In this document: piece after piece, positions 17,497 through 41,868 of the stretch
How the letters are laid out: each line of letters begins with the position of its first letter
How positions within the stretch are numbered: position 1 is the stretch's first letter
DNA from: Deltaproteobacteria bacterium
GTDB taxonomy: Bacteria > Desulfobacterota > Desulfarculia > Adiutricales > Adiutricaceae
Assembly (NCBI GenBank): GCA_031278635.1
Contig: JAITKA010000005.1
Location: forward strand, 1 to 64,000
DNA length: 64,000 nucleotides
Reading direction: 5' to 3'
The notes under the pieces: generated by a model
The model's input: only the letters and a program-made list of their open reading frames with translations
The model's database searches: none
Told to the model about the DNA's origin: nothing
Position numbers and translations under genes: made by a program

Positions 17497-20400
17497 ATGT
17501 CAAATGAGTTGACAGCATTTCTCAATTTCACGTTTGAGAAAAAGCAGACTGAAACCAAGGTTGTTGAGGATGATGCCATCTCCAGCGTCTTGCGTTGGCA
17601 GCTCAATTGGCGGGAGTACGAGAGCTACCTTAGAAGCCTGGGCATAGACGCAAGCTCCGATACCAGGCCCTCCCTTTTGCGCTACGGAAACCCCCAGCCC
17701 GACGTCAGGGTTTTGGACGATCTCATCGACTTTCAAAAACATCTGCGGGGCACGATCAAGGAAATAATCAAAGATAAAAGGATAACCCCCTCTAACTATT
17801 CCAGGTTTTTCTCCGAGTCCAACGGCGTTTCGACCTACCTACCTTTGCCCGAAAACCTAAGCTACGATATAACCCCTGATAACATCGAAAGTTTAAACCT
17901 CCGGTACGGCTATGACGCCGCCACGTACCGGATTTTCATGTCCGCGGTCATTAGCGGCATGATTGTCGATAAATCCATATTCGATTTGGCCATCGACAGC
18001 GAAGGTCGTTTTTACATGGATGAGTTCGGAAGGGGGAAAACGACCATTTTCGATAGCACCCTAAGCGATCCCCGGCGCGGCCAAGGCGGGGGAGTTCCCC
18101 ATGGCGAGGGGTGGTCACGGCCCGCTAACCAATACCAAACCCTGAGGCCGTTGCCCGGTTCCAGCCAGCCCCAGACCGAGGGGCTTGGGACGGGAGGTTA
18201 TCCCGCTCCCGGGAACGGGGCCTACAACGGGCCTGCGGTAGGCCCGGCTCCCGAAAACCTTGGATTTTCCGCAGGGTTGATAGACATGCTGGCCGCGGCC
18301 ATAACCGAGCGTTTATCCGAGGCGAAAAAGCCCGCCCCGGCCAATGCCGATTCCCCCGTTGGGACGGCCCATACCATCGAGCCCGATGAAGACATCGCCC
18401 AGGATATCAGTAACGTCTCCCTTGAGGAGCACGAGGCCTATTTCTCCAGATCTTCCAAGTTCGTGGGAGCCGACGAGGATTTTGATTTCATCTGTATCCC
18501 GGAGGTGAGCGGGCCGGCGACCGGTGCTGGCCAAGGCCAAGCGGGCTTGGCCGAGACGCCGCGGGCGGATGATTTTTCGCGAGAGGCCCAAACGACCCCC
18601 CAGGGTAGCCAAGGCCTCTCCGCCCAGGGGGAATCGGCCCTGGGCCACGGGTCAATCCCGGACCAGGGGTCAGCCCAGAACCACGAGACGATGGTCCAGG
18701 ATATCCTTTCCGAAATGGCCATGATTTCCTCGGCCAATGTCGCCGATTTCAACACCCGCCTTCAGGAAATGATCAATGGCCCCGGTATGCCGCCGATGGG
18801 TGAAGGTAAGAAAGGCCCCCGTTACGGGACCGGGCCAATGGCCGATTCTACCACGGGTGGCGCCTTCGCCTCGGGGCTGACCGGGGCGCAACGCGAGGAT
18901 CATGAATATTCAAGCCCTGACGCCATTTCTTTCGAGTCCGATGAGAATTTCCAAAACGCGGATTTTATTCTCGAAGAGGTCGTTCAAGGGTCACAGATGG
19001 CGGATTTTGGGGACGACGAGCCCTTACTTTTGGAAGAGATCGTCTATGATAACAAAGTTATCGACGATGAAGATGCTTATAACCCATTCATCATCGAGAT
19101 TCCCCAAAATGATCACTCTCTGGGCTTAAGCGATGAGCCTTTGATCGATAACGCGCCCGGCCCGGAAAAAGACCCGGAGGAACGAACCTTCCCGCCTTTG
19201 ACCGAGCCCCTGATCGAGACTTTCGCCGCCCCCATAATCGAAAGCGAGCCCCCGGAACCCTTCGATACCCTGGCCCCCGCGCTCCAAAATACCGAGCCCC
19301 CGATTACCGACGCCCCGGTATCCGGCCTCCCGGTAACGGACCAGGCCGAGCCAAGCCCCGCGGCCCTGGAAGGGCCAGCGACTGACTCTTTCGACTCCCA
19401 GGGGACCGTGGCCGACCCACCGGCGGTCACCTCAACGGATTTGGGCCCCGAGCCCTCGGCCTTTGACCCCGTCGGCCTTTCGGCCGTGGGCGGGGCCCCG
19501 GAAGGGCCCAGCGCCCTGCCCCAGGACGCTGCCCTGGGGGCCGTGGTTATCCGCCCGGCGATCCCTTCAACCAATTTGGGCCCCGAGCCCTCGGCCTTTG
19601 ACCCCGTCGGCCTTTCGGCCGTGGGCTGGGCCCCGGATGGGCCCAGCGCCCTGCCCCAGGACGCGGACCTGGGGGCCGTGGTTATCCGCCTGGCGATCCC
19701 TTCAACCAATTTGGGCACCGAGCCCTCGGCCTTTGACCCCATCGGCCTTTCGGCCGTGGGTGGGGCCCAGGAAGGGCCCTGGGCCATGCCCCAGGACGCG
19801 GACCTGGGGGGCGTGGTCACGCGACCGGCGATTCCGTTTACTTATTTGACTTCCGAGCCCTCGGATTTTGACCCCATCGGCCTTTTGGTTGGGGGCGGGG
19901 AGCCGGAGGGGTCCTGGGCCATGCCCCAGGACGCGGACTTGGGGGCCGTGGCCGTTAGCCCGGCTATCGCCCCAAAGAAAATGGGTCCGGGGCCCTCGGC
20001 CTTTGACGCCATCGGCCTTTCGGCCGTGGGCGGGCCGCAGGTGGGGACCAGCTCACTGCCCCAGGACGCGGCTCTGGAGGCGGTGGTCATTCGCCCGGCG
20101 ATCGGGTCATCGAGTTTGGGTCCCGATCCCTCGGCCTTTGACGCCATCGGCCTCACGACCGCCGGGGGGGCGCAAGCCGTGGCCTACGCCATGCCCCAGG
20201 ATGCGGACTTGGAGGCCGTCGTTGCCCTCGTGGCTTCGCTGCCGGAAAGCGTTCCCGAGCCGGCCTCAAGGCGGGGGGAGGCCCAGGACGATGAGCCCAT
20301 GGACGAGATTTTGGACCTGGGGGTGGTAGCCGAGACGTTGGAGGTTTTTGGCGTCCCGGTGGCGGCGGGCCAAGGCGTTGCCGAGGAAGGGCCGGAGGGC

Positions 20401-21198
20401 GTCACGGGCGATTATCGCGGCGGGGAAAGCCCTTCAGCGTCCGGGCCAACCGATTTGGGTTTGTCGGACCCGCTGGGCCCTGACACCGGGGAGCCGGCCT
20501 CGGCGGCCGGGGAGGGGGCTTCGAGGAAGGAAAGCGTCCTCGAGAAGATGGCCCGTAAGTACCGGAATTTCGATCCGGCCTACTTTGGCGTTGAGGTCGG
20601 TGGCGACGGGGAGCCCGGCGAGACCCCGGCGACCGAGGCGGGCGGTGGCGAGCCGGCGGTAAGGTATGTCGATGACAGCCTGGATCAATCCCTGGTAAGC
20701 GGGCTGGAGCTGCCTTCCGCGGGCGAACTCCACTTGGAAGAAGGGGCCAACGTTTCGGCCGTGGGGCCGGGGGTTAACGGCCAAGGGACATTGGCCGGGG
20801 AGGCCTTGGAAGGCGCCCCCGAGGCTGTCGCGGAATCCGACCCGGCTGGGGAGGATTACGAGGAGCCGGTGCTCCTTTTGGATCAAGTCGTCGAGGAAGG
20901 CGAGGCCTTCACGGATTACGGCGCGGCGGGGCATGACGAGGCGCCGTACGATGAGACGCCATACGACGAGGTGGCGGAGGCCGCGGGGGAAGCCCCGGTG
21001 GAAGAGATGATCCAGTATCCGCTTGAGCCGTGGCCGGAGGGATTCAAGGGCAGCGACGATCAGCCGGTCGAGCACCTGCTGGCCACCATGGAGGAGAGGC
21101 TTTTCAGGAAGCGCCAATCCAGGACCTATTTGGTCCCGTCGGGGGCGAATGAGGCCAACTGGCAGGCCATGCGTAAAATTAGGCTCAAAGGCATGTGA
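17497..21198 (+). CDS. Large acidic Pro/Ala/Gly-rich protein of unknown function with internal 45-aa tandem repeats
   Basis: Long ORF; ATG at 17497 preceded by AAGGAG, preferred over the 17446 start; conserved-looking ~190-aa N-terminal region, low-complexity middle, distinct C-terminal segment. Confidence 0.85.
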   Translation: MSNELTAFLNFTFEKKQTETKVVEDDAISSVLRWQLNWREYESYLRSLGIDASSDTRPSLLRYGNPQPDVRVLDDLIDFQKHLRGTIKEIIKDKRITPSNYSRFFSESNGVSTYLPLPENLSYDITPDNIESLNLRYGYDAATYRIFMSAVISGMIVDKSIFDLAIDSEGRFYMDEFGRGKTTIFDSTLSDPRRGQGGGVPHGEGWSRPANQYQTLRPLPGSSQPQTEGLGTGGYPAPGNGAYNGPAVGPAPENLGFSAGLIDMLAAAITERLSEAKKPAPANADSPVGTAHTIEPDEDIAQDISNVSLEEHEAYFSRSSKFVGADEDFDFICIPEVSGPATGAGQGQAGLAETPRADDFSREAQTTPQGSQGLSAQGESALGHGSIPDQGSAQNHETMVQDILSEMAMISSANVADFNTRLQEMINGPGMPPMGEGKKGPRYGTGPMADSTTGGAFASGLTGAQREDHEYSSPDAISFESDENFQNADFILEEVVQGSQMADFGDDEPLLLEEIVYDNKVIDDEDAYNPFIIEIPQNDHSLGLSDEPLIDNAPGPEKDPEERTFPPLTEPLIETFAAPIIESEPPEPFDTLAPALQNTEPPITDAPVSGLPVTDQAEPSPAALEGPATDSFDSQGTVADPPAVTSTDLGPEPSAFDPVGLSAVGGAPEGPSALPQDAALGAVVIRPAIPSTNLGPEPSAFDPVGLSAVGWAPDGPSALPQDADLGAVVIRLAIPSTNLGTEPSAFDPIGLSAVGGAQEGPWAMPQDADLGGVVTRPAIPFTYLTSEPSDFDPIGLLVGGGEPEGSWAMPQDADLGAVAVSPAIAPKKMGPGPSAFDAIGLSAVGGPQVGTSSLPQDAALEAVVIRPAIGSSSLGPDPSAFDAIGLTTAGGAQAVAYAMPQDADLEAVVALVASLPESVPEPASRRGEAQDDEPMDEILDLGVVAETLEVFGVPVAAGQGVAEEGPEGVTGDYRGGESPSASGPTDLGLSDPLGPDTGEPASAAGEGASRKESVLEKMARKYRNFDPAYFGVEVGGDGEPGETPATEAGGGEPAVRYVDDSLDQSLVSGLELPSAGELHLEEGANVSAVGPGVNGQGTLAGEALEGAPEAVAESDPAGEDYEEPVLLLDQVVEEGEAFTDYGAAGHDEAPYDETPYDEVAEAAGEAPVEEMIQYPLEPWPEGFKGSDDQPVEHLLATMEERLFRKRQSRTYLVPSGANEANWQAMRKIRLKGM
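19435..20244 (+). repeat. Six tandem 135-bp (45-aa) coding repeats
   Basis: (T/S)xLGPEPSAFDPVGLSAVGGAxEGPSALPQDADLGAVVIRPAIPS repeated six times; offset of 135 bp between copies 1 and 2 checked. Confidence 0.92.
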
Positions 21199-24004: not shown

Positions 24005-26044
24005 TTATTTGTTGACCGGGAACAGGACCACCTTGCCGGCCAGGTCCTCGTCGGTGAAAACGGCCAGGGAGACGGCGATGGACGGCATGGTCAGGGTTTG
24101 GGGGAGGCTTGGCGAAAAGGAGCGGCCCCCCAGGGTGAATTTGGGCCTGGACAGTTCCAGCCTGTTTTCCAGCTGGACTTCCTTGACGGTCACCTGGGTT
24201 CCGGGGCTTAGGCCCCAGCGTTGCCCCAGGGCCAGGACCTTCTCCGTGCCGTTGGCTTCCAGGGTCACGGATTTAAGCCTGGGCTGGGATATCTCGAGAT
24301 AGGCGGCGGCCAGGAGCTCGGGGCCATGCTCGGCGCCAAGCTGGAAGACCCGGTGTCCTTCCAGGTCCATGGCGAACCTTGCGATCATGTCCTTGGAGGT
24401 GTCGGCGGTGGTGCCCTTGTCGTTCCCTTTGGTGTCGCCTGGGCGCCCTATGAAACCCCTTAGGTTCATGACGGTATCGGAGGGCAGCGGGGTTTGGGTT
24501 TCCAGGTCGACCATGGTTACCTTGGCCCCATGCCTTAGGGTCAGGGTCTCCCCGGGCCGTAGTACGAGCCTCCGGCCATCGACTTCCAGTATGAAACCGC
24601 TCACGCCGTTCACGGTCCCGGCGGGCTCGGGCCCGCCTTGGCCCGTGGCCATTCGATCGAGGGGCGTCATGGTCAGGCTCCCGGCGGAGGCTATGGCCGG
24701 CGGCCCGTTCCTGTCCAGATCGGCGGTCGTCAGGGTCAGTTTTGCCGGCGCCGCCGGGGGATCCATGGGCGGCATGGTCATGCCAGGGAGCCAACCGGCC
24801 CCGGCCTCGACCGGGGCCACCTGGCTGGCCAGGAGAAGCCTGGGGCTGGTCTCGGTCGAGCCGGGCGGCAATAGCTTGAGGGAGATCTGCCCGAAGGTCT
24901 GGTTGTCCTTCCTGGCTATGATTTTAGTGGGTTTCTTTATCGTAAGAGGCATCCTGATGTCGTTGAGGCTTCCGGCGTCAAGGACGTCAACCGATAGGCC
25001 CCGGTCGTAATTGGCCCCGATGTGTACCACTTCCACCGTGTTCCCTGGGGCGATCATGAGGGTCTGGCCGTCGGCCACGGCCACCGGGAGCTCCCCGTTG
25101 ACCGATATGACCAGGTAATGGAGGACGGCCGGGTCAAGGTTTATCCTGGGCTGCTCCGGGATGACCCCGTACAGTTGCATGAAGGCGTTGACGGCCAGAT
25201 TGTGCTGGTGGATTTTCATCTCCAGGGAGGGGAGCTGCTTGGAGGTCTCGATGCCGAAGGCCGGGATGCCCAGTTTGGTCAGGGCGTAGAAGGTGGCGGA
25301 TTTTCTTTGCTCCGGATGGTCGGAAGTATCGCTTAGGGTGTCGTGGTTGGAGAACCTGAATTTATAGCGCTCCTCCGGGATATCCTCGTTTATGATCTCG
25401 GAGGCCCTGCGGGCGTAATCGCCCAGGTTGATGTCCCTGCCCGTTTTGGGGTCGGTGTAGACCTCGGCGTCGGCGATGATGCATTGGCCATAGCGGGAGG
25501 GGTTGGCCATTTCGCTCTCCCAGGCCGTCCTGAAAAACCCGTTGCCGTCGTGAAGGTTCAAGAACAAATCGCTTTCGGCCATGAGGTTTTTGATGATCTC
25601 GATGCGGTCCCGGTCCGGGTCCATGTCCTGGACCCCGTCGAACTTGCGGTTCATGTCCCCGTCCGGTCCACGGTCGAAGAGGATGATCGACTTGAAATTG
25701 GCCCTGGGGACGACGATGAGATTGCCCCTTTTCAGGGCCATGTCCACGTACAGGTCGGCGGACAGGAAGCCGCCCGGCTCGTCGCCCTGGATCCCACCCA
25801 TAACCATTATGGTGGGCCCCTCGTAGCGACCGTAGATTTTGTATATTTCCAGTTCCTGGGGGGTTCCCTCAAAATAGACGATATGCTGGCGATCCGACTG
25901 ACCCTGGGCCGCGAGGGGGACAGGGAGGGTCAAAAACACGAAGGCCAAAGCCCCAAAAAAATAACCTATGGCGATTCCCAAGCCTTTACGAATATTTTTG
26001 GGGGCTTCGGTCGCGGTGGATTTCATTCCGCGCCAAGGCATCAC
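24005..26044 (-). CDS. M99/M14-like carboxypeptidase (Csd4/Pgp1-like peptidoglycan D,L-carboxypeptidase family)
   Basis: GGIQGDEPGGF (Gln-x-x-Glu in place of HxxE), NLHDGNGFF, long multi-domain C-terminus, N-terminal hydrophobic segment. Confidence 0.75.
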   Translation of the reverse strand: MMPWRGMKSTATEAPKNIRKGLGIAIGYFFGALAFVFLTLPVPLAAQGQSDRQHIVYFEGTPQELEIYKIYGRYEGPTIMVMGGIQGDEPGGFLSADLYVDMALKRGNLIVVPRANFKSIILFDRGPDGDMNRKFDGVQDMDPDRDRIEIIKNLMAESDLFLNLHDGNGFFRTAWESEMANPSRYGQCIIADAEVYTDPKTGRDINLGDYARRASEIINEDIPEERYKFRFSNHDTLSDTSDHPEQRKSATFYALTKLGIPAFGIETSKQLPSLEMKIHQHNLAVNAFMQLYGVIPEQPRINLDPAVLHYLVISVNGELPVAVADGQTLMIAPGNTVEVVHIGANYDRGLSVDVLDAGSLNDIRMPLTIKKPTKIIARKDNQTFGQISLKLLPPGSTETSPRLLLASQVAPVEAGAGWLPGMTMPPMDPPAAPAKLTLTTADLDRNGPPAIASAGSLTMTPLDRMATGQGGPEPAGTVNGVSGFILEVDGRRLVLRPGETLTLRHGAKVTMVDLETQTPLPSDTVMNLRGFIGRPGDTKGNDKGTTADTSKDMIARFAMDLEGHRVFQLGAEHGPELLAAAYLEISQPRLKSVTLEANGTEKVLALGQRWGLSPGTQVTVKEVQLENRLELSRPKFTLGGRSFSPSLPQTLTMPSIAVSLAVFTDEDLAGKVVLFPVNK

Positions 26045-29529: not shown

Positions 29530-30347
29530 ACGATAAGCCTTCTAAAAATGAATGCCTAAACTGTTATATTGTACTAATTAAGGCGGTTGCATACAAGTGC
29601 TCATGATAAGTACAAAGTATTGGCCGACAATCGAGAATCCTCGATACATGATCCATAACGATCACGGCCCTTTTTTGCCGCCAAGCCGATACCCCTTCCC
29701 TAAACGGCCTTCCCCGGCCGCCAGCCTAAACTCCCAAGCCAGGCGCCCCGCGATTCCCCGACCATGGCCCTATACCGTTTCCCCAGGTTCGCGCGAAGGT
29801 CAACCGAAGCCTTGCCCTTGGTTAGCCGGTCAAATGACTGCGTATTTGAGACATCTTATCAGAAATGACTAGATAATGCCAGTATCTTGACAGTAAAACT
29901 AAGCTTCTAAAATTAACTGACAAAATAATACGCCTTTATAAGTAATTATATATAAAAATATAATTTTATAGTGAAGTAAAATTTCGAGCCAAGTAAAAAA
30001 CGTGTTTAAAGAAAATAGCATTATATTTATATGTTTTAGAAATTTTGAAAATAAATTGTCAGCATTAAATAAATTATCAGTGATTATTGGCTTGTAATAT
30101 TAATAAAGTTAAAACACTTATATAATAAAATAGGATTATAGACCTAAATTTGCCATCTTAGGTTAGCGCCATTGATTTGGCGTATTTTTTTGCTTTGGCG
30201 TAAGCAAGCGAAAGGGTACGTGATTCTCAATCAAGGTTGGGCTTTGAGAATTTAGGGCAACAAAACGATGGTGCACCGTCAAGGGGCTTGAAGCGACTTC
30301 AGAAGGATCTGAGCCACGTGTCATGAGCCTGTCTCGTGGGTATGGAC

Positions 30348-30690
30348 TGGGCATTATGCTTAAGAAGGCGGTGTTGGGTGGGCATTTTGTTTAAGTAAAA
30401 AATGACGTGATTTAAAGATAACGTACCTTGGATTGAAATTTATGGATTGGAAGAACTAAAAGTTGCGACAATAATAAAAGAGTTAATGATGAAGTAGAGT
30501 ATTTGTCAAGGCCATCTTTAGGGATGTGACTGGTCAGTATGCATAGTAGTTAGGTTTGAAAATGTGCATTATGCATAAGCAAAAAAAGAGAGTTTTAAAA
30601 GATAGAGGACCGTGGAATTTAATTTTAAGCTTAGAAAGGCCTAAACGATACGGAATTATGAAAAGCGTTAATGATGAAGTAGCCGATTAA
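30348..30690. repeat. Degenerate intergenic repeats, period about 185 bp
   Basis: GCATTWTGYWTAAGYAAAAAA...GTTAATGATGAAGTAG at about 30382-30500 and 30566-30685; extra GCATTATGCTTAAG at about 30350. Confidence 0.7.
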
Positions 30691-31239
30691 TTTATTTCTT
30701 TCTTGGGGGTATTAGCTCAATATTTTTGGTGACAGGCTAGGTTTTTTAGTGTATCGTAGAGTTACCTCAAAATGTACCCAAATAATGCGCCTTTTGGTAG
30801 CCAAGGTATTGGCTGTCGTGGTGGGCGCGGATTTCTTGCGTGGTAACGACGTTGTAGATTTTAGTTGTTTGTGGTGACTATGTAAGTGGTCTTGATGGGA
30901 ATATTAACGACTGATATGCGACTGATATTAGATAGAAAGCTAGATTATAGTCAACGGCAAGCATGTTGGGCAAAAAAAATGCTAGGGAGTTAATTTCGAT
31001 GAACACATTTTTTTAGTCCGCCTATCCACGCAAGTAAAGATTGACGTTCAAAATTAGGTGACTTTAGTGATTAAGTCAGGGTCCTAAAAAATGTAAGAAG
31101 GTACAATATGGTTAAAGGAGTTAATGAGGACCTAGACGATTTGTTTTACGGGGATTCGGATTCATAATTCCGATTTTTACAAGACAGGCTTTGATTGATC
31201 CCGTAAGATAAGCTTAATCAAAAATCTCCTGGGCAAACC

Positions 31240-31600
31240 GAAATTAAAAGCCATAGCTTTGGTTTGTTGCCATGACAAAGTGACACGCGCGCGAGGGTTT
31301 CTTCAGGCTCTGACCGTCTGCGGCCAGAGGCGAAATTCTCAGGGGAAGCTTGCCGATGGGGTGCGATCGGTAGCGCGTAGGTTGCTTTGGCCACCAAGGG
31401 TATCGTTTGTCCACGGAAAAGGACGTGGCCGGGAGACCGACGAGAGCGAAAGCCGTGGGTTTGTCATGGGGTCAGGACGGGTCCCTATGAAGGCGCGAAC
31501 CTCGGCGCGCCAGCTGGCATGGATCCTACCATTATGCAAAAAGGTCCGGACCCGTTTTGGCTTCCCGAATAAGGCTGAGGAAAAAACGAAAGTAAAGTTA
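31240..31600. ncRNA. GC-rich, hairpin-rich island in AT-rich intergenic DNA; candidate structured RNA
   Basis: Hairpins CTCTGACCG-TCTG-CGGCCAGAG, CCACGgaaaaggaCGTGG, GGCGCGaacctcggCGCGCC; contrasts with AT-rich flanks; no recognisable protein. Confidence 0.35.
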
Positions 31601-31680
31601 TAGTACTTTAGATATTAAGTTAAGATCCTAACATTCCTCAGAACGATTCATAAATTCAAAATAAGTAATGAGTTTCACCA

Positions 31681-32200
31681 TAATTTTGTCTGTCCTGCTA
31701 TGATTTTATAATTCCGTTTTTTACAAGACACGTTTTGTCATTTGAAGTATCCTTGCAGGACAACGAAAAAATTTTCCAACCACAATTAAATAGCGAATGT
31801 CCATAATACTACGAAAAATTTATATTTAGGGCTCTTGATCAAAAGATCATTTGAATTAATTAAAAATCTGACATTGCGCTGTTTGATCGAATAGGTGCTG
31901 GCCTTAATTAACTGCCGTATTATTTAGGCAATAGATCCTATAATTTTATTTGTCCTGCAATGAACTTATAATTCCGTTTTTTACAAGACAGGTTTTATCG
32001 TTTGAAGTATCATTCCCGGACATCGAAAAAAGTTTCCAAAAATAAATAAATCGCAAAAGAACATTTTACGCTAAGACTTTATATTTATCGCTTGTGATCA
32101 AAAGATTATTTGATCCAATAAATAAAACCTTACCTTTTGCGTTTTGATCAAATAAGTGGCGTCTATAATAAAGACCCATATTGTTTGTGTATAGATAACT
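31681..32200. repeat. 260-bp tandem direct duplication upstream of the ALDH operon
   Basis: Copies at 31681 and 31941 share TTATAATTCCGTTTTTTACAAGACA, GTTTGAAGTATC, TGATCAAAAGAT, GTTTTGATCAAATAAGTG in the same order. Confidence 0.88.
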
Positions 32201-32288
32201 TTAACTCTATCTATGACTAGTCTGGTCATGACTTTCGTGTCCAGATTTAACTTTCGGACGTGATGCGTCTGAATACAAGGGAGCTAGT

Positions 32289-33659
32289 ATGTCAGTTCAA
32301 GAACAAATCGACACGATGATCGAAAGGTCCCGCGCGGCGCTAAAGGTCCTGGCCACGTATGACCAAGAAAAGATTGACGCGTTGTGTAAGGCCTGTTGCA
32401 TGTCCTACAGGGAACACGCGATCGAGATGTCCAAGGAAGTCATCGAGGAAACCCGGCTGGGCAACTATGACCACAAGATTATGAAGAACATGGGGACCCC
32501 GGACGGTCTCTGGTTGGAAATCAAAGGCAAAAAGAGCGTGGGCATCATTGAGGACGATCCCAAAACCGGCTTGATGAAGGTCGCCCACCCCAAAGGCTTG
32601 GTCGTCGTCGTGGCCCCCACCACCAACCCCAACATGACCGCTTTGGTTAACAGCGTGCTGTCCATCAAGGGCCGCAACACCGTCATAATTTGCTCTCACC
32701 CCAGGGCCAAGAAAACCACGGTTAACACGGTCAAGATCATGAGCGATGCCATGGAAGCCCTTGGCGCGCCCAAATACATCATTCAGGCCATCGAGGAGCC
32801 CTCGGTCGAGCTCACCCAGAAAATGATGTCCCTGGCCGACATCATCATCGCCACCGGCGGCATGGCCATGGTCAAGGCGGCTTATTCCTCCGGTAAACCC
32901 GCCTACGGGGTCGGCTCCGGCAACGTCCAGTCCATCGTCGATCGCGACTTTGACCTGAAAGCGGCCATCGGGATGATAGTCATGGGCCGCTCCTTTGACA
33001 ACGGCCAGGTTTGCGCCTGCAACCAAAGCGCCATCGTCCCCGAGGAGAAGCTCCCGGAAGTCATCCAGCTGCTCAAGGAGAACGGGGCCGCCTATTTCGA
33101 TGATCCCGCCGACATCGACAAGATCCGTCAGACCGTCTTCAAAAACGGCGTCCACAACTCCGCGGTCGTCGGTCAATTCCCAAAGACCATCGCGGACCTG
33201 GCCGGGGTTAAGGTCGATGAAAAAGCCTCCATTATCGCCGTGTTGGGCGACCCGAACAAGGTTGGCGCCAACGAGCTCCTGTGCGGCGAGAAGATGTGCC
33301 CCGTTTTGATCGTGATCCCGTACAAGACTTACGATCAGGCCCTAGAGATCGCCAAGGCTAACCTGCTTTACAGCGGGGCGGGCCACAGCTGCTGCGTCTA
33401 TTCCAATACCCAGGAAAACATCAATAAGGTCGGTCTGACCATGCCGGTTTGCCGGGTTCTGGTCAACCAGCCGGGCATGGGCGCGGCTAACGCCTTCGGG
33501 AATAACGCCCTGTGCTCCACCTCGACGCTGGGTTGCGGTACCTACGGCAACAATAGCTTGGACGAAAACCTTAACTACCGGCACATGATCAACGTCACCC
33601 AGGTGGCCAAGGTCAATCCCAGTTTCGTGCCCGTCCCCGAGGATCAAGTCTACAAATAA
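32289..33659 (+). CDS. CoA-acylating aldehyde dehydrogenase
   Basis: 456 aa, AdhE-N/EutE/SauS-like; VVVVAPTTNPNMTALVNSVLSIKGRNTVI; SFDNGQVCACNQSAIV catalytic Cys region. Confidence 0.88.
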   Translation: MSVQEQIDTMIERSRAALKVLATYDQEKIDALCKACCMSYREHAIEMSKEVIEETRLGNYDHKIMKNMGTPDGLWLEIKGKKSVGIIEDDPKTGLMKVAHPKGLVVVVAPTTNPNMTALVNSVLSIKGRNTVIICSHPRAKKTTVNTVKIMSDAMEALGAPKYIIQAIEEPSVELTQKMMSLADIIIATGGMAMVKAAYSSGKPAYGVGSGNVQSIVDRDFDLKAAIGMIVMGRSFDNGQVCACNQSAIVPEEKLPEVIQLLKENGAAYFDDPADIDKIRQTVFKNGVHNSAVVGQFPKTIADLAGVKVDEKASIIAVLGDPNKVGANELLCGEKMCPVLIVIPYKTYDQALEIAKANLLYSGAGHSCCVYSNTQENINKVGLTMPVCRVLVNQPGMGAANAFGNNALCSTSTLGCGTYGNNSLDENLNYRHMINVTQVAKVNPSFVPVPEDQVYK

Positions 33660-33721
33660 CCACGCTAAGCCGGGGCCCGGCCGGGCCCCGGCCCGCCTAA
33701 ATAAAAGAAGGATATTCGAAG

Positions 33722-34627
33722 ATGGAATACTACAAAGATTGGGACGAGGTCATAAAAAGCGTCAGGGGCGGCGACAAGGTCAAAAAAGTCGTCGTGGCTT
33801 CTGGCCAGGATGACCATAGCATCGAAGCCGTGGCCAAGGTGGCCCAAGACGGTTTAGTCAGTCCCGTTCTGGTGGGCGATATCAATTTGATTAAGCCTTT
33901 GCTTGATAAATACGGCCTCAAGGTTGACCCGGAAAATATCCACCATCAACCGGACCCGAACGAGGCGGCTAAGACGTCGGTCAAACTTATCAAGGAGAAT
34001 AAAGGCGACTTTTTGATGAAAGGGAGCCTGGAGACGAGCCAGCTTCTTAAAGCGGTGGTCGATAAGGAGAACGGTCTAGGCAAAGGTAGGCTTATGAGTC
34101 ACGTTGCTTACCAGCAAATGCCCGCTTACCACAAAATGCTGGTCTCTACCGACGGGGGTATGGTCGTTAACCCGGATCTGTTGCAAAAAAAAGAGATCCT
34201 ACAAAACGCAGTCGATACGCTGTTGGCTTTGGGTTACGACAAACCGAAAGTCGCCGTGTTGGCGGCGGTTGAAAAGGTCAACCCGAAAATGCCCGAGTCG
34301 GTTGACGGCGAGGCCTTAAAAATCATGAACCAGAAGGGGGAAATCACCGGCTGCGTGGTCGAGGGCCCCATTTCCATGGATTTGGCCTTGGTCAAAGAAA
34401 AGGCCGTGATCAAAAAGTATGAGAGCCCGGTGGCGGGCGACGCCGACATTTTGCTGGTGCCAAACATAGTCACCGGGAACTGCGTGGGCAAGGCTTTCAT
34501 CGAGATGGCCGGGGCCAAGATGGCCGGGCTAATCGTGGGGGCCAAGGTTCCCATAGTGGTCACCTCGAGGGCCTCGTCGGCAGAGGAAAAGTACCTCTCC
34601 CTGATATTGGCTGCCGCTGGCGCGTAA
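33722..34627 (+). CDS. Phosphate acyltransferase, phosphate butyryltransferase-like
   Basis: 301 aa; FLMKGSLETSQLLKAVVDKENGLGKGRLMSHVA; GPISMDLAL; ADILLVPNIVTGN. Confidence 0.88.
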   Translation: MEYYKDWDEVIKSVRGGDKVKKVVVASGQDDHSIEAVAKVAQDGLVSPVLVGDINLIKPLLDKYGLKVDPENIHHQPDPNEAAKTSVKLIKENKGDFLMKGSLETSQLLKAVVDKENGLGKGRLMSHVAYQQMPAYHKMLVSTDGGMVVNPDLLQKKEILQNAVDTLLALGYDKPKVAVLAAVEKVNPKMPESVDGEALKIMNQKGEITGCVVEGPISMDLALVKEKAVIKKYESPVAGDADILLVPNIVTGNCVGKAFIEMAGAKMAGLIVGAKVPIVVTSRASSAEEKYLSLILAAAGA

Positions 34628-34639
34628 TAGGATAAGGAA

Positions 34640-35704
34640 ATGAGCGAGAAGATCTTAGTCTTAAACCCAGGCTCCCAGTCAACCAAAATCGCCATGTATA
34701 ACGGTGGCGAAAGAAAGTGGCAAAAAAATATCGAACACTCCATAGAGGAACTAAAAAAATACCCCAATGTCTATGATCAGACGGACATGCGTTACGAACT
34801 GATCATAAAATCGGTGGCCGAGAATAATGACACCCTGTCCGATCTCTCGGCCGTGGCCTGCAGGGGTGGCCCGGTGACGGTATACAAAAGCGGTGGCTAC
34901 GAGGTTACCGACGAGTTGATTAGGCTCGCCAGGGAAAAGCCGATGTCCATTCACGTTTCCAACGCGGCGATGGGGATTGGCAAAAAGATAGCCGATTCCT
35001 TGGGGGTCAAGTGCTACATATACGACGGCGTCACGGTGGACGAGATGATCCCCATCGTCAAAGTCACCGGGCTAAAGGAAATGAGCCGTCGGGGCCAGGG
35101 GCATACCCTGAACATGCGGGCCGCGGCCATAAAACTGTGCGAGCAAAACGGCTGGGACTATTACGCCAAAAATATAGCCGTGGCCCACCTAGGGGGCGGC
35201 ATCACCCTCAGCTTGCACAGCAACGGGGTGATCATCGACATGATCTCCGACGACGAAGGGCCTTATTCCCCTGAACGCGCCGGGGGCCTGCCAGGGTTCC
35301 AGCTGATAAATGAATGCTTTTCGGGGGCCTATACCGAGGAATCCATGTTTAAGCGCATCCAGAGGGCCGGGGGCTTGATGGCCCACCTGGGCGTCACCGA
35401 CATAAGGGAGGTTGAAAAGAGGATCTCGGACGGCGACCAAAAGGCCAAGCTTGTCTATGAAGCCATGGCCCTAAACGTGGCCAAAAACCTAGCCAAGCTG
35501 GCCGTAACCGTGAAGGGTCAGATTGACTCCTTTGTTTTAACTGGCGGTATCGCCTATTCCGAATATTTCTGCGGAATGGTGATCGACTACATTCAGTTTT
35601 TAGCGCCTGTTTCGGTTCTTCCTGGGGAAAATGAGATGGATGCTTTGGCCTTTGGGGTAGCAAGGATCCTTAAGGGTGAAGAAAAGCCTAATAAGTTTAA
35701 CTAA
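34640..35704 (+). CDS. Acyl (butyrate-like) kinase
   Basis: ASKHA fold: ILVLNPGSQSTKIAMY; RGG; SRRGQGHTLNMRAAA; VAHLGGGITLSLHSNGVIIDM; FVLTGGIAYSEYF. Confidence 0.9.
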   Translation: MSEKILVLNPGSQSTKIAMYNGGERKWQKNIEHSIEELKKYPNVYDQTDMRYELIIKSVAENNDTLSDLSAVACRGGPVTVYKSGGYEVTDELIRLAREKPMSIHVSNAAMGIGKKIADSLGVKCYIYDGVTVDEMIPIVKVTGLKEMSRRGQGHTLNMRAAAIKLCEQNGWDYYAKNIAVAHLGGGITLSLHSNGVIIDMISDDEGPYSPERAGGLPGFQLINECFSGAYTEESMFKRIQRAGGLMAHLGVTDIREVEKRISDGDQKAKLVYEAMALNVAKNLAKLAVTVKGQIDSFVLTGGIAYSEYFCGMVIDYIQFLAPVSVLPGENEMDALAFGVARILKGEEKPNKFN

Positions 35705-35711
35705 CCTAAAT

Positions 35712-35741
35712 CCCTTAGGATCACAAAAATGATCCTAAGGG
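35712..35741 (+). promoter_or_regulatory. Perfect 11-bp-stem hairpin between the kinase and MFS genes
   Basis: CCCTTAGGATC-acaaaaat-GATCCTAAGGG without a following U-tract. Confidence 0.7.
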
Positions 35742-35819
35742 CTGGGAGAGGCTAAACTCTTTGGCTAAAACCAAATCACCGGACGCTTCCCTTGGGCGGC
35801 ACCGAGAAATAGGATTCAT

Positions 35820-37049
35820 ATGAGTCAAAACACGCCGGCAATAACCGCGGGCTCTGGACCTAGCGGCTTACGATACCTCTACTTGGCTTTAGGGATAGTG
35901 CTTCTTCTAGCCATGGGTCTCGTTTACGCTTGGTCGATTTTCGTTCCGCCCTTGGCGGCCGAGTTTGGTTGGGACCCCTCCAAAACTTCCATGGGTTTCA
36001 CCATACTCATGTCCATGTTCTGTTTAGGCGGTATCGCGACAGGGCTTATAACAAAAAAATACCCGGTCGGCTTGGTGGTTTTTTTAAGCGCCCTTTTGGT
36101 CGGTGGGGGCTTTTACGCTTCTTCAACCCTCCAGAGTTTGGCCGGGTTATATCTCTTTTTTAGCGTCATGGTCGGCTTAGGCGTCGGGATGACGTATAAC
36201 GCCGTATTAAGCTCGATCCTCAAGTGGTTTCCCGACAAAATCGGTTTGATTTCCGGTTTATTGATGATGGGATTTGGCTTGGGGAGTTTCATCTTAAGTA
36301 CCGTCGGCACTTCCTCGATCCAAAATTATGGTTGGCGCGCGACATTCGTAAGGCTGGGCATAGTTTACTTCTTTGTCATTTTAATCTGCTCATTTTTTGT
36401 TAGACCTCCAGGGCCCGGAGTCGTTTTCAAAAAACCAAGCCAGGTGAAAAAGAAGGCTGAAGATGGCTTAGAGCTTCCAGCCAGCCAAATGTTGAAACGT
36501 CAAGCTTTTTGGTTCTTTTTCCTATGGGCCGTTGTCTTAACGGCGGCATCGCTGATGGTTATCGGCGCCGCCACACCCATAGCCAGAAGTTTAGGGGCCG
36601 ATAGTATTAAGGCCGGGTTCTTAACCGGGATGATAGCCATATCCAATGGTTGCGGCCGAGTCATTGCCGGTGTCTTACACGACAAACTGGGCCGTAAAAT
36701 AGTCCTCCCCATATATAGCGTTCTTTTCACGGTAACCGGTTGCGTTCTGTATCTGGCAATAACCAGCCAGAGCTTAACCCTGATCACCGTTGGTTTTCTG
36801 ATGACCGGCTTGGCCTACGGCGGTATCCCGCCCTCAAGCTCTACCGTGATCAGTCGCTTTTATGGGCAAAAAAATTACTCCTTAAATTTCAGCTTGGCCA
36901 ATACCAGTATTTTGGCGGCATCCTTCCTAGGCCCGGCTTTGGCCGGTCAAATGCAGTCAAAAAGCCAAAGTTATGGCAGTACTTTTATGGCCATCATCAT
37001 TTTTGGGGTTCTTTCGATAGCATTTTGCTTCAAGATTAGAAGACCATAA
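35820..37049 (+). CDS. MFS transporter (oxalate/formate antiporter-like)
   Basis: 12 hydrophobic segments; GLVYAWSIFVPPLAAEFGW; GLGVGMTYNAVLSSILKWFPDKIGLISGLLMMGFG. Confidence 0.88.
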   Translation: MSQNTPAITAGSGPSGLRYLYLALGIVLLLAMGLVYAWSIFVPPLAAEFGWDPSKTSMGFTILMSMFCLGGIATGLITKKYPVGLVVFLSALLVGGGFYASSTLQSLAGLYLFFSVMVGLGVGMTYNAVLSSILKWFPDKIGLISGLLMMGFGLGSFILSTVGTSSIQNYGWRATFVRLGIVYFFVILICSFFVRPPGPGVVFKKPSQVKKKAEDGLELPASQMLKRQAFWFFFLWAVVLTAASLMVIGAATPIARSLGADSIKAGFLTGMIAISNGCGRVIAGVLHDKLGRKIVLPIYSVLFTVTGCVLYLAITSQSLTLITVGFLMTGLAYGGIPPSSSTVISRFYGQKNYSLNFSLANTSILAASFLGPALAGQMQSKSQSYGSTFMAIIIFGVLSIAFCFKIRRP

Positions 37050-37129
37050 CCCCTTAAAACAATTTTTGTCCCAAAACCAAGCCAGGAAAAGCAAACGCGA
37101 GGCTATATAGGTTTTAGATAGGAGACGAC

Positions 37130-38293
37130 ATGTTCAATTTTCTCTTGCATCAGTCAGTCAGAATTCTCTTTGGCGCCGGTACGAGCCAACAGGTCGGCGA
37201 TCTAGTCAAGTCCCTGAACAGGAAGAAGGTCTTTATCGCTACCGATAAAGGCATCGTTCAGGCCGGCATAGCCGAAAAAATCATTGGCGCCGTCAAGAAG
37301 GCCGGTCTGGACTACATCCTTTTCGACGAGATCCTGCCTGACGCCCCGGCCAAGTTCGCCGAGGAAGGCTACAAGGTCTTAAAGGACTCCGGGGCCGATG
37401 CCGTCGTCGCGTTGGGCGGGGGCAGCACCATTGACACCACCAAGGCCATCAACCTCCTCAGGTTTAACGACGGCCCCCTGATGAAGTACACCGAGGGCCC
37501 GCCGGCTTGGGCGATGGTTAAGGCCGCGCCTGGCCTTATCGCCATCCCGACCACGGCCGGGACCGGTTCCGAGATGTCCGACGGCGTTATCATCGCCGAC
37601 GAAAACCACGTCAAAAGGACCATCCTTAGCCCGCTGGTCATGCCGGAGTACTCGATCCTGGATGCCGAGCTGTTGCTGGGCGTTCCCCCGCACATCCTGG
37701 CCTCCACCGGCCTCGACGCCCTTTCCCACAACATCGAGGGTTACCTGGTTAACCTGTCCGTCCATCTCACCGACGTCATCTGCCTGGCCGCCGCCGCTTC
37801 CATCCTGAAATGGCTGCCGATCGCCTTTAACGACCCGAAGGACATCGAGTCAAGGTCCCACCTGATGGCCGCCTCGGCCCTGGGTGGCTGGATGTTGGCT
37901 AACGTCCACTGCAACAGCGGCCACTCCTTCGCCCACGTCTTGGGCTCCCTCTTCGGCATGCCCCACGGCTTTGGTTGCGCCTACGCCATGCCGCCGGTCA
38001 CCGAGTTCAACGCCCCCGTCGTTCTCGAAAGGACGAAGACGGTCGGCGAACTCTTTGGGCTGAAGTTCGGCGCCAACGAGAGCCCCGAGGAGGTCGGCAA
38101 GAAGGTCAAGGATGCCATGATCCACTTTAGGGACGTGACCTTGAAGCTCAAAAAAGCCAAAGAGTTCAACTACGATCCGGCCCGTTTTGAGGAAGCCAGT
38201 AATTTGGTCCTCAAGGAAGCTTTCCAGATGTTCAACCCGAGGGAGATGGATCAAAAACAAGCTCTCGCCATCATCAAAGAGATCTACGCCTAA
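37130..38293 (+). CDS. Iron-containing (group III) alcohol dehydrogenase
   Basis: VALGGGSTIDTTKAI; IPTTAGTGSEMSDG; STGLDALSHNIEGY; GHSFAHVLGSLFGMPHG metal ligands. Confidence 0.92.
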   Translation: MFNFLLHQSVRILFGAGTSQQVGDLVKSLNRKKVFIATDKGIVQAGIAEKIIGAVKKAGLDYILFDEILPDAPAKFAEEGYKVLKDSGADAVVALGGGSTIDTTKAINLLRFNDGPLMKYTEGPPAWAMVKAAPGLIAIPTTAGTGSEMSDGVIIADENHVKRTILSPLVMPEYSILDAELLLGVPPHILASTGLDALSHNIEGYLVNLSVHLTDVICLAAAASILKWLPIAFNDPKDIESRSHLMAASALGGWMLANVHCNSGHSFAHVLGSLFGMPHGFGCAYAMPPVTEFNAPVVLERTKTVGELFGLKFGANESPEEVGKKVKDAMIHFRDVTLKLKKAKEFNYDPARFEEASNLVLKEAFQMFNPREMDQKQALAIIKEIYA

Positions 38294-38304
38294 CGACGTG
38301 GACA

Positions 38305-38334
38305 AAAGCCGTGGGTTACCAAACCCACGGCTTT
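38305..38334 (+). terminator. Terminator-like hairpin after the Fe-ADH gene
   Basis: AAAGCCGTGGGTTaccAAACCCACGGCTTT. Confidence 0.8.
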
Positions 38335-38356
38335 AAAGTCTCCGGAGGCAGTTTCC

Positions 38357-39271
38357 ATGCAATACAATCACCAAGTGTCGATATTGTTGCCAGAGCAGCC
38401 TGGTTTTTTCTTTAGGGACAGCCGAATCCGAACCGACGTTTGCCTTTGGAATCCGTTGGTAAAAAAGAATTTGGGCTGCTTTTTTGAATTCACCACTGGC
38501 GCGAATGATGAAGTCCTCCAGCTTGTACCGGATAACTGCCTAAGCTTCTATTTTTTCCTAAACGACGCTCCTGAAGGGTTTATCGCCGGACCTCACACGA
38601 GCTCTAAAACAATCAATTTGCCGGCCCACACAACCATTCTTATTTTCAAACCTTTGACCATCCTAAAAACGAAATTCACCGCCAGCTTCAGCCAGGATAG
38701 CATCGAGGATGTTTATCCACTGGACATATTCTTTAAAAATAGCCCCCTTCTGGCCAAACTTACCGAAGCCCATGGTTATACCGAGCGAAAGGAGATATTT
38801 CTCTCCGAGGCTAGGAAGCATCTATTGGTTCCACAGTACGGTTCGTCTAAGTATGGATCGGATCTGGTAGACGAGATGCAACTTTTGATTTGTCGCACCA
38901 AAGGACAAAAAAAGGTTAAGTATATTGCGCAAAAGATGGGTTATTCTGAAAGATACTGTCATTTGCTGTTTAACGAAGCGATTGGTATGTCCTTGAAACT
39001 ATATTCAGAGGTTATTCGTTTTCAGAACGTGATTAAGATGTTCTTTCACCAAACCACTAACTTTTTGGAAGTGGCCTTGGCCAACAATTTACATGACCAA
39101 GCCCATCTTTATCATGTCGTTAAAAGGTTTACCTCTTACGCTCCCAGCGAGTATTTGAGGACTTTTTATAAATATGAGAATTTTGGCCTGCCCGTTAACG
39201 CAGTTCAGCGCGACTACAAAAACTCACCTGAGCAAGGTGAAAGTGAAATGCCAAAAGCGTTTCAAATTTGA
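38357..39271 (+). CDS. AraC-family transcriptional regulator
   Basis: C-terminal double HTH: VKYIAQKMGYSERYCHLLFNEAIGMSLKLYSEVIRFQNVIKMF...LANNLHDQAHLYHVVKRFTSYAPSEYLR. Confidence 0.82.
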   Translation: MQYNHQVSILLPEQPGFFFRDSRIRTDVCLWNPLVKKNLGCFFEFTTGANDEVLQLVPDNCLSFYFFLNDAPEGFIAGPHTSSKTINLPAHTTILIFKPLTILKTKFTASFSQDSIEDVYPLDIFFKNSPLLAKLTEAHGYTERKEIFLSEARKHLLVPQYGSSKYGSDLVDEMQLLICRTKGQKKVKYIAQKMGYSERYCHLLFNEAIGMSLKLYSEVIRFQNVIKMFFHQTTNFLEVALANNLHDQAHLYHVVKRFTSYAPSEYLRTFYKYENFGLPVNAVQRDYKNSPEQGESEMPKAFQI

Positions 39272-39309
39272 TTGTTCGAACTCCCACTCCCAGGAGGTTT
39301 CAATATAAA

Positions 39310-40524
39310 ATGACCGAATCGAATAATACCGCTCCCCAGGAAAATCCCCAAAACAAAGTACCCGGCTACGCTTGGGTAATATTGTTATTGGTATATTTCG
39401 CTTCCATCGCAGCCCCGCTTAATCAGTTTAAGGTCCCGCCGGTCATGGGCCTGCTCATCGACAGCTATACCCTGACCCTGGCCGTGGCGGGCATGCTCAT
39501 GGGCATTTTCGCCCTGATCGGGGCCATACTGGCCTTGCCCTCCGGCTTCATCATGGGCCGGATCGGCGTGAAGAACGCGGGCCTCACGGCCCTGTTCTTC
39601 CTGATGGCCGGGAGCGCCCTGGGCGCCGTGGCCACCACCACGACGGTCCTCATGACCAGCCGCGTCCTTGAGGGCGTGGGTATGTGCCTCATTTCCATCG
39701 TGGCCCCGACGGCCCTGGCCCACTGGTTCCCGCCCAACAAGCACGGCCTGGCCATGGGCATCTGGGGTACGTGGGTGCCGCTGGGCAGCATCATTTCCTT
39801 CGCGATCTTCCCGTCCATAGCCGCCAAAAGCTCCTGGCCGGGCGTCGCCTGGGCCAGCTTCGGCTACACCGCCGTCCTGTTCGTCCTCTTCGCCATCCTC
39901 TTCCGCATGCCCAAGCCAGCGGACGGCTCCGGCCCCCCGGCCAAGCCGACCTTCCAGGCAGAGATGTCGAACATGGTCAACGTGGTCAACAAAAGCGGCC
40001 CCTGGCTCCTGGCCTTCTCTTTCTGCGGCTACATGATGCTGACCATCTCGCTCATTTCCTTCCTGCCCACCTATTTCGGCACGGTCAGGGGCATGGCTCC
40101 CCAGCAGGCAGCCAACGCCTCCCAGCTTTACCTCATCGCCAACATGCTGGGCATCTTCCTGGGCGGGGTCCTCTGCGACAAGTACGGTAGCCGCCGCGTG
40201 ATCATGTACCCCTACATAATCGCGGCCATTATCATGATCTTCCTCTTCGCCCCGGGGAACCTCCTGTACGTAACCATGATCGCCGTGGCTTTCATCGGCC
40301 CCTTCGGCGTCACCCCCTCCTTCGCCGCCGCCCCCCAGCTGGTGGCCCCACAGGACGCCGGCCGCGCCATGGCCGTGCTGGCCCTGGGCCAAAACCTGGG
40401 CATGGCCGTGGGTCCCCCGATTTTCGGCAAGCTGGCCGAGACCTCCTGGACCTACGCCGCCTATTTCACCGTCCCGGTGGTCCTAATCGCCGCCTTCCTG
40501 GCCTCGCGCCTTAAAATCCGCTGA
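39310..40524 (+). CDS. MFS transporter
   Basis: 12 TM segments; ATG at 39310 preceded by AGGAGG, preferred over the 39268 start. Confidence 0.87.
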   Translation: MTESNNTAPQENPQNKVPGYAWVILLLVYFASIAAPLNQFKVPPVMGLLIDSYTLTLAVAGMLMGIFALIGAILALPSGFIMGRIGVKNAGLTALFFLMAGSALGAVATTTTVLMTSRVLEGVGMCLISIVAPTALAHWFPPNKHGLAMGIWGTWVPLGSIISFAIFPSIAAKSSWPGVAWASFGYTAVLFVLFAILFRMPKPADGSGPPAKPTFQAEMSNMVNVVNKSGPWLLAFSFCGYMMLTISLISFLPTYFGTVRGMAPQQAANASQLYLIANMLGIFLGGVLCDKYGSRRVIMYPYIIAAIIMIFLFAPGNLLYVTMIAVAFIGPFGVTPSFAAAPQLVAPQDAGRAMAVLALGQNLGMAVGPPIFGKLAETSWTYAAYFTVPVVLIAAFLASRLKIR

Positions 40525-40556
40525 CGGGCCACCCGTCCCCTAGGCGCGCGAACGCG

Positions 40557-40585
40557 AAAAGCCCCCGTCCAAACGGCCGGGGGCT
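40557..40585. terminator. Bidirectional terminator between convergent genes
   Basis: AAAAGCCCCCGtccaaacggcCGGGGGCTTT. Confidence 0.88.
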
Positions 40586-40611
40586 TTCTCTTTGGGCAAG
40601 GCGGGCTGGCC

Positions 40612-41868
40612 TCAGTCGCTTTTGGGGAGCCACCAGTCATCGTCCCGGGTCAATTCCTCGAAAAGGCGGCTCAGGATATCCGGGGTGCCGAAATCGGCCG
40701 TTTTGGTAAGGACCGATAACTGCCCGGCCGAGGCGAAGACGATGCCTTGGGTCAGGTCGGAACGGATCCAGAGCTCGTCGAGATTCATGGCCATGAGGGT
40801 TTGCATGGCCAGATCCCCGCCGGAGATGAAGATGGATTTGTATTGGCGGTTCTTGACCAGATCGGCGGCCAGGATACCAAATTTCTCGTTTATGACCCTC
40901 AAGGGGTACTTTTCCTTAAACTCCTCGTCGTCGCCTTTGTCCGGCAGGGTGATGATCAAAGGGCGGGAATGGACCAAAAGGGGTACGGTCAAGCCGTGGT
41001 CGTTAAGGAGGTTTTCCACGTTTACCGTTAATATCTCGCCGTCGTGCTCGTCGGCCAAGATCTTGAACTGTTCGTTCAGTTTTTTGGAATAGGAGCCGCC
41101 GAAGAATATGATCGGCGTCTGGGGAACGGGCGGGTGGAACTCGTCCTCCAACCAGTTGCGGTTTCTGGTCGCGTAAAGGTCGGCCAGGATCCCGGCGAAG
41201 CCCAAAGACCCGGAAAACAAGACCCGGTCGGCGAATTCCCTCGACCCTTTAACCAAAAGGTCCAGGTCGTAGTCGAACTCGGCGTCGCAGGCCACGATGA
41301 ACCGCGTGCCCTTGGAGAGAAACTCGTTTAATTTTTGTTCTATGGCGTCGGGACCGTTCCGGATCTCGTCGATTTCCAGCGACTCGACCCTGAGATCGTG
41401 ATCCTCGGACATGACCATTTTCAGGCGGGAATCCAAGACGGGTTTGACGGGGTCCTGGGAGTATTGGGTGGTGTGGATGGGTTTATCCTCTACCATGTGG
41501 ACGCCTTTTATGGTGGTCCGGCCCAATTCCGGGTCCGCCGGGGCGACCAGGGCGAAATCAAGCTCGTCGAAGGTTTTTAGGGCCGTGGCGATTTCATGCC
41601 CCACGCATCCCCTAAGGCAACTATCGATCCTCTTATATATAATTCTAGGTCTATGATCGTTTAAAAGAGACTTTATTTTCCCAAGGGCCTCGGGGATTTT
41701 GGACGGTTCGACCGCCCGCGTGTTGGCGTTTACCGCCAAAACTCCTTTTATCCCCGACCAATCGGCCTTTTTGAGGCTAACCAGTTTGACCGGGCCGCTT
41801 TTGGTGAATTTGGCCGCCGTATCGGTACAGCCGGTTAACGTGTCGGCAATAATTAGCGTTTCGATCAT
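40612..41868 (-). CDS. DUF1537 / four-carbon acid sugar kinase family protein
   Basis: IIADTLTGCTDTA N-terminal motif; YKRIDSCLRGCVGHEI; VAPADPELGRTT; ISGGDLA; C-terminal nucleotide-binding domain. Confidence 0.85.
   Translation of the reverse strand: MIETLIIADTLTGCTDTAAKFTKSGPVKLVSLKKADWSGIKGVLAVNANTRAVEPSKIPEALGKIKSLLNDHRPRIIYKRIDSCLRGCVGHEIATALKTFDELDFALVAPADPELGRTTIKGVHMVEDKPIHTTQYSQDPVKPVLDSRLKMVMSEDHDLRVESLEIDEIRNGPDAIEQKLNEFLSKGTRFIVACDAEFDYDLDLLVKGSREFADRVLFSGSLGFAGILADLYATRNRNWLEDEFHPPVPQTPIIFFGGSYSKKLNEQFKILADEHDGEILTVNVENLLNDHGLTVPLLVHSRPLIITLPDKGDDEEFKEKYPLRVINEKFGILAADLVKNRQYKSIFISGGDLAMQTLMAMNLDELWIRSDLTQGIVFASAGQLSVLTKTADFGTPDILSRLFEELTRDDDWWLPKSD

Follow-up and report, generated by a model that had tools for sequence, protein, structure and literature searches.

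What do seven genes on the forward strand of contig JAITKA010000005.1 (Deltaproteobacteria bacterium, assembly GCA_031278635.1) convert, and in which direction? They lie at 32289-40524 of the window, i.e., the stretch of 64,000 nucleotides analysed here, and encode in order a CoA-acylating aldehyde dehydrogenase (ALDH), a phosphate acyltransferase (Ptb), an acyl kinase of the butyrate kinase family (Buk), a carrier of the major facilitator superfamily (MFS) of the oxalate-formate antiporter (OFA) type, an iron-containing alcohol dehydrogenase (Fe-ADH), an AraC-family regulator, and a second MFS carrier. The initial annotation suggested that they might serve an organosulfonate. We regard a different explanation as reasonably probable: a self-contained catabolic module in which a neutral aldehyde or alcohol, perhaps an aromatic one, is oxidised or dismuted to a monocarboxylate that leaves the cell, with a gain of ATP. 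A sulfonate claim built on a mistaken precedent would thus give way to a recurrent modular route, in which one clade of ALDH accompanies Ptb and Buk and the enzyme that forms the aldehyde varies.

The cluster and its second copy

The gene set, its order and its strand were correctly described at the outset: the coordinates agree, and each of the seven assignments is backed by Pfam and NCBIfam (Table 1). The interval first given for the cluster, 32289-41868, holds as far as 40524, but its end belongs to an unmentioned DUF1537 kinase gene on the reverse strand (40612-41868), convergent with the seven genes. Both MFS carriers were noted as well, but they belong to different families: the first is of the SfMCT/OFA type, and the second has no close characterised relative and is common, among the loci compared, only to the second copy of the cluster (blastp). 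The intergenic gaps are, from 5' to 3', 62, 12, 115, 80, 63, and -4 bp.

The genome of this uncultured anaerobe (G000, 3.41 Mb, 92% complete) has this second copy on another contig, C52, where all seven genes are intact and in identical order. A single blastn match of 8.3 kb with 77% DNA identity covers positions 32242 to 40505 of the window, starting just 5' of the ALDH start codon and stopping shortly before the second MFS gene ends, and the flanks are unmatched. The dN/dS ratios between the copies range from 0.10 to 0.23 per gene, which indicates purifying selection on all seven genes, and both copies therefore appear to be retained by selection. Since the whole set recurs on C52, and its ALDH-Ptb-Buk core recurs in other phyla, the seven genes are a real unit and not a chance assembly. 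In the other genomes of the window's family that we examined, no ALDH was closer than 42%. The genome also encodes a further module of the same composition (L041, contig C169, 6409-18000) with Ptb, two Buk, a regulator, an Fe-ADH, a protein of the old yellow enzyme (OYE) type, and an OFA carrier that shares 54% identity with that of the window; its ALDH is of a different, EutE/PduP type, unrelated to the window's.

Table 1. Genes of the cluster, with their positions in the window and the evidence for each assignment.
Feature	Position	Strand	Evidence
CoA-acylating aldehyde dehydrogenase, catalytic motif C-A-C-N-Q	32289..33659	+	PF00171; SucD 8cei 430 bits; tree, residues
Phosphate acyltransferase (Ptb family)	33722..34627	+	PF01515, NCBIfam, blastp, tree
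Acyl kinase, butyrate kinase family	34640..35704	+	TIGR02707 375 bits (cut-off 289); Buk2 1x9j 264 bits
OFA-type MFS carrier, probable monocarboxylate transporter	35820..37049	+	NF049980 287/320 bits; SfMCT 6g9x best solved match
Iron-containing alcohol dehydrogenase	37130..38293	+	PF00465, PF25137
AraC-family regulator	38357..39271	+	PF12833; alignment
Second MFS carrier	39268..40524	+	PF07690; blastp

The gene content supports the chemistry proposed initially, in which an aldehyde gives acid and alcohol and ATP is gained, or the route runs the other way. From what is known of the families, the Fe-ADH would interconvert alcohol and aldehyde, the ALDH would convert aldehyde, CoA and NAD(P) to acyl-CoA, Ptb would exchange the CoA for phosphate to give an acyl phosphate, and Buk would transfer the phosphate to ADP, yielding one ATP per acid, all of these reactions being reversible. 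The monocarboxylate-type MFS carrier would carry the acid, probably outwards, and the AraC protein would regulate the unit. Among the open reading frames (ORFs) inspected near the cluster and in the C52 copy there was no gene for a lyase, a diol dehydratase or a shell protein, a search that did not extend to the whole window. Excluding classical butyrate formation was also justified: no protein of the genome matched the acyl-CoA dehydrogenase profile PF00441, which matched in nine of the 14 control genomes, and the classical route to butyryl-CoA is therefore very probably absent.

The aldehyde dehydrogenase pocket and sulfonates

The best solved match of the window ALDH is SucD of Clostridium kluyveri (8cei, 44% identical), and the catalytic Cys242 and His366 are present. 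In SucD the distal carboxyl of the acyl chain is held by Lys70 and Ser243, positions at which PduP has hydrophobic residues (PMC10249356). At the substrate-contact positions the window ALDH has Thr70, Ala243 and Met395. Within its clade, position 70 is occupied by Thr, Ser or Phe, position 243 by Ala, and position 395 by Met, Ile, Val or Pro, and the more distant ALDHs of Streptococcus and Enterococcus have Ala70 and Met70. Lys70 is kept by SauS-like ALDHs and by SucD-type ALDHs encoded near mutase or succinate-CoA-ligase genes (L147, L148). Its lack in the window clade argues against a sulfonate or a carboxylate at the far end of the acyl group, which, judging from residues and relatives, is quite likely uncharged, i.e., not that of sulfoacetate, sulfopropionate or succinate. 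Hence, although SucD is the closest solved protein, interconversion of succinate semialdehyde and 4-hydroxybutyrate (SucD/4HbD type) is most improbable: the window ALDH has Thr and Ala in place of Lys70 and Ser243 and so falls outside the SucD type, whose relatives in L147 and L148 keep the lysine.

The placement against SauS, proposed initially as a check, points the same way. In the tree the window ALDH falls in a clade separate from SauS-like ALDHs, which had scores of 517-535 bits, under the cut-off of 600, and served as proxies in trees that held no verified SauS, SqwD, HpfX, HpdJ or HpdK. The window ALDH itself scored 347 bits with the SauS model (NF047625, cut-off 600), and the Fe-ADH 172 bits with the SarD model (NF050025, cut-off 700), a cut-off that no Fe-ADH in the genome passed. 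The annotation had also taken SqwK and SqwL for a phosphate acyltransferase and a kinase, which is wrong: SqwKL and its analogue HpfYZ belong to the CoA ligases, HpfYZ being ADP-forming and of the succinate-CoA-ligase family (PMC11659671, PMC11489063). The window pair matches PF01515 and PF00871, and thus does not have the ADP-forming CoA-ligase fold of SqwKL/HpfYZ.

Sulfonate genes do occur elsewhere in the genome, but they are unlinked to the cluster. Contig C64 has an operon (L118, 4823-12534) with a glycyl radical enzyme that matched the model of the 2,3-dihydroxypropane-1-sulfonate (DHPS) type, NF048011, with 1370 bits (cut-off 1000) and may act on DHPS or isethionate, an activase, a class III aminotransferase, and a taurine-type ATP-binding cassette (ABC) transporter. 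Contig C14 (L043, 8223-16444) encodes an ALDH nearer to SauS (469 of 600 bits) with Arg at SucD position 70, together with a CitE-like protein, a CoA-transferase-like protein, an Fe-ADH, and a tripartite ATP-independent periplasmic (TRAP) transporter. The organism thus probably handles sulfonates, though not visibly through the window cluster, and the C64 and C14 loci are better candidates, that of C14 for sulfoacetate. Dismutation of sulfoacetaldehyde or 3-sulfopropionaldehyde by the cluster, or reduction of sulfoacetate, would agree with its resemblance to a SauS/SarD/SauU layout and with the presence of the C64 operon in the genome. It is nevertheless quite unlikely given the use of CoA ligases instead of Ptb and Buk in the known sulfonate routes, the scores far under the SauS and SarD cut-offs, the lack of Lys70, and the C14 ALDH, which is closer to SauS and has its own transporter and Fe-ADH. 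An organosulfonate substrate is therefore not supported.

Related loci, substrate and direction

A genome scan identified seven loci with related ALDHs (41-56% identity to that of the window), in Lutispora, Cuneatibacter, a Spirochaetaceae metagenome-assembled genome (MAG), two Clostridiales MAGs, a Deltaproteobacteria MAG, and Streptococcus zalophi, and further loci came from searches of whole genomes and plasmids. Almost no new members emerged when 395 Desulfobacterota genomes, and 348 and 351 genomes from two other families, were scanned; the clade is rare, and the counts of gene context are small. The related loci span Bacillota, Spirochaetota and other Desulfobacterota, and most of them retain ALDH, Ptb and Buk (L088-L091, L093, L144, L145, L052) while the alcohol dehydrogenase is swapped: an Fe-ADH in L088, a zinc enzyme in L144 and L145, another zinc enzyme in L052. 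Because the three genes persist while the alcohol dehydrogenase varies, we infer that ALDH, Ptb and Buk form the core and that the aldehyde-supplying enzyme is exchangeable. In Cuneatibacter, the genes for Fe-ADH, ALDH, Ptb, Buk and an OFA carrier are adjacent. Relatives of the window Fe-ADH adjoin ALDHs of the same clade in L088, L092 and L146, and regulators aligning with the window AraC protein adjoin them in other phyla. The window Fe-ADH has the conserved Asp and His residues of its family.

Several features of the cluster and its relatives bear on the substrate, which may be aromatic. Like the ALDH residues, Ptb and Buk speak against a charged far end. The closest Ptb outside the genome (66%) is encoded in an IorA-IorB-Buk-Ptb operon of a genome of the window's own family (G035; blastp, tree), whose IorA shares 75% identity with another that scores above the IOR_alpha cut-off, and in the tree both Ptb and Buk of the window are near homologues linked to indolepyruvate oxidoreductase (IOR). 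Such homologues linked to 2-oxoacid oxidoreductases yield (hydroxy)phenylacetate and ATP, and an IOR-linked kinase of Clostridioides difficile has its highest activity on phenylacetate and 4-hydroxyphenylacetate (PMC13285125). Buk passes the NCBIfam butyrate kinase model, which does not fix its substrate since the family also contains aryl kinases. The zinc alcohol dehydrogenase encoded with ALDH, phosphate acyltransferase and butyrate kinase in Enterococcus gilvus and E. raffinosus (L144, L145) has 5tnx and benzyl alcohol dehydrogenase (1f8f) as best solved matches (311 versus 202 bits for others). In L108 and L052 the related ALDHs have Phenol_MetA_deg proteins as neighbours: one accompanies Ptb, Buk, ALDH and another zinc alcohol dehydrogenase in G035, and one adjoins an ALDH and an Fe-ADH in the Deltaproteobacteria MAG, which has a second ALDH near a putrescine-aminotransferase-like enzyme (L107). 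The OFA carrier, although slightly under its model cut-off, shares with the lactate carrier SfMCT the residues Y119, N276, R280 and Y331, among them the carboxylate-binding Arg280, Asn276 and Tyr119. It has Pro instead of Phe335, a residue whose replacement by Ala raised transport in SfMCT (PMC6573034). In genomes of the window's family, IorA(-IorB) adjoins Ptb and/or Buk at L045, L047 and L049, which are probable operons for conversion of arylpyruvate to arylacetate with ATP gain outside Clostridia.

We tentatively suggest that the acyl group may be aromatic or bulky, e.g., that of an arylacetaldehyde or 2-arylethanol oxidised to arylacetate. This would imply an anaerobic ATP-yielding route through an acylating ALDH, arylacetyl-CoA and arylacetyl phosphate, scattered over distant anaerobes, in which Fe-ADH, zinc alcohol dehydrogenase, aminotransferase and perhaps amidohydrolase replace one another as the aldehyde-forming enzyme. 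We found no acylating arylacetaldehyde route with Ptb and Buk in the literature searched. Such a route would be so far undescribed, and its existence is somewhat doubtful. Several observations weigh against our interpretation. The residue analysis is taken from one structure, and the substrate assignment rests on that structure and on relatives. ALDH, Ptb and Buk are 40-66% identical to their nearest relatives, a distance at which specificity may differ, and a Phenol_MetA_deg protein is a poor indicator of aromatic substrates. L092/L108 and L107 have neither Ptb nor Buk, and an aromatic substrate does not fully explain the amidohydrolases of L087 and L089-L091 or the aminotransferase of L107.

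Oxidation of a short-chain aliphatic alcohol or aldehyde (propanol, butanol, or isobutanol/isoamyl type) by what would be the clostridial Adh-Ald-Ptb-Buk branch on its own is somewhat unlikely. Ptb and Buk families do act on C3-C5 acyl groups, Buk scores over the butyrate kinase cut-off, and the ALDH pocket is hydrophobic as in PduP, but the closest Ptb and Buk outside this type of cluster are IOR-linked and one partner alcohol dehydrogenase resembles benzyl alcohol dehydrogenase. The module could also run backwards as an electron sink, with an imported monocarboxylate activated by Buk and Ptb and reduced to alcohol, which would fit the reversibility of every step and the presence of two carriers. 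This would cost ATP, and we consider it unlikely because the ALDH of L107 adjoins an enzyme that would form aldehydes from amines, which favours oxidation. The net direction is thus probably oxidation or aldehyde dismutation.

Some related loci have other neighbours. Several of the Clostridiales and Spirochaetaceae copies are encoded with amidohydrolases. In L089 (3078-16644), L087, L090 and L091 the ALDH is accompanied by an Amidohydro_3 or Amidohydro_2 protein, a Lumazine_bd_2 protein and an AraC protein, and L089 also encodes a BaiCD-like OYE. These loci may represent a different aldehyde-producing route; for an enamidase or ring-opening function of these neighbours, no informative solved relative was found. 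In Streptococcus zalophi (L093, 4756-14237), ALDH, AraC, Ptb and Buk genes come right after genes resembling the ascorbate (ula) operon. This prompted the idea that the DUF1537 kinase, whose N-terminal part is D-threonate-kinase-like (167 of 450 bits), belongs to the cluster; it was dropped as the C52 copy has no such kinase, and near the kinase in the window we recognised no gene that could act with it in threonate use.

Immediately 5' of the ALDH gene lies an AT-rich stretch of 2.76 kb (29530-32288; GC 0.39 versus 0.54 in the cluster) with no evident gene and no Rfam match. The C52 copy also has an AT-rich upstream stretch (0.38), dissimilar to this one. Elsewhere the window encodes an autotransporter of 3137 residues with a subtilase domain and PATR repeats (1838-11251), an ORF of 1250 residues without a Pfam match at 1e-5 (17446-21198), and a protein of the Peptidase_M99 family of cell-shape carboxypeptidases of helical bacteria (24005-26044).

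Comparison with known systems

The cluster shares parts with several systems. SucD differs from the window ALDH also at Thr395 and in its motif, CSSEQ instead of CACNQ. The SqwD-SqwKL and HpfX-HpfYZ branches likewise couple an acylating ALDH to an ATP-forming step from acyl-CoA to acid, with an alcohol-forming side branch, but they use CoA ligases where the window has Ptb and Buk, and the window ALDH lacks the substrate-contact lysine. The clostridial Adh/Ald-Ptb-Buk branch has the four enzyme activities and the ATP-yielding acid branch in common with the cluster, which differs in standing alone as an operon with genes for AraC and two MFS carriers, in its distinct ALDH clade, and in the lack of an acyl-CoA dehydrogenase in the genome. 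The uncharacterised Enterococcus operon follows the same module logic, with an ALDH 45-47% identical to the window's, but has a zinc alcohol dehydrogenase, TetR in place of AraC, and no OFA carrier. Finally, HpdJ and HpdK act with a 2-oxoacid:ferredoxin oxidoreductase to convert arylpyruvate to arylacetate (PMC13285125). Their Ptb/Buk homologues also convert acyl-CoA to acid and ATP, but the acyl-CoA comes from a 2-oxoacid, whereas in the window it would come from an aldehyde through the acylating ALDH. If the substrate is indeed aromatic, the cluster would place an ATP-yielding aldehyde route beside this recently characterised arylpyruvate route of gut anaerobes.

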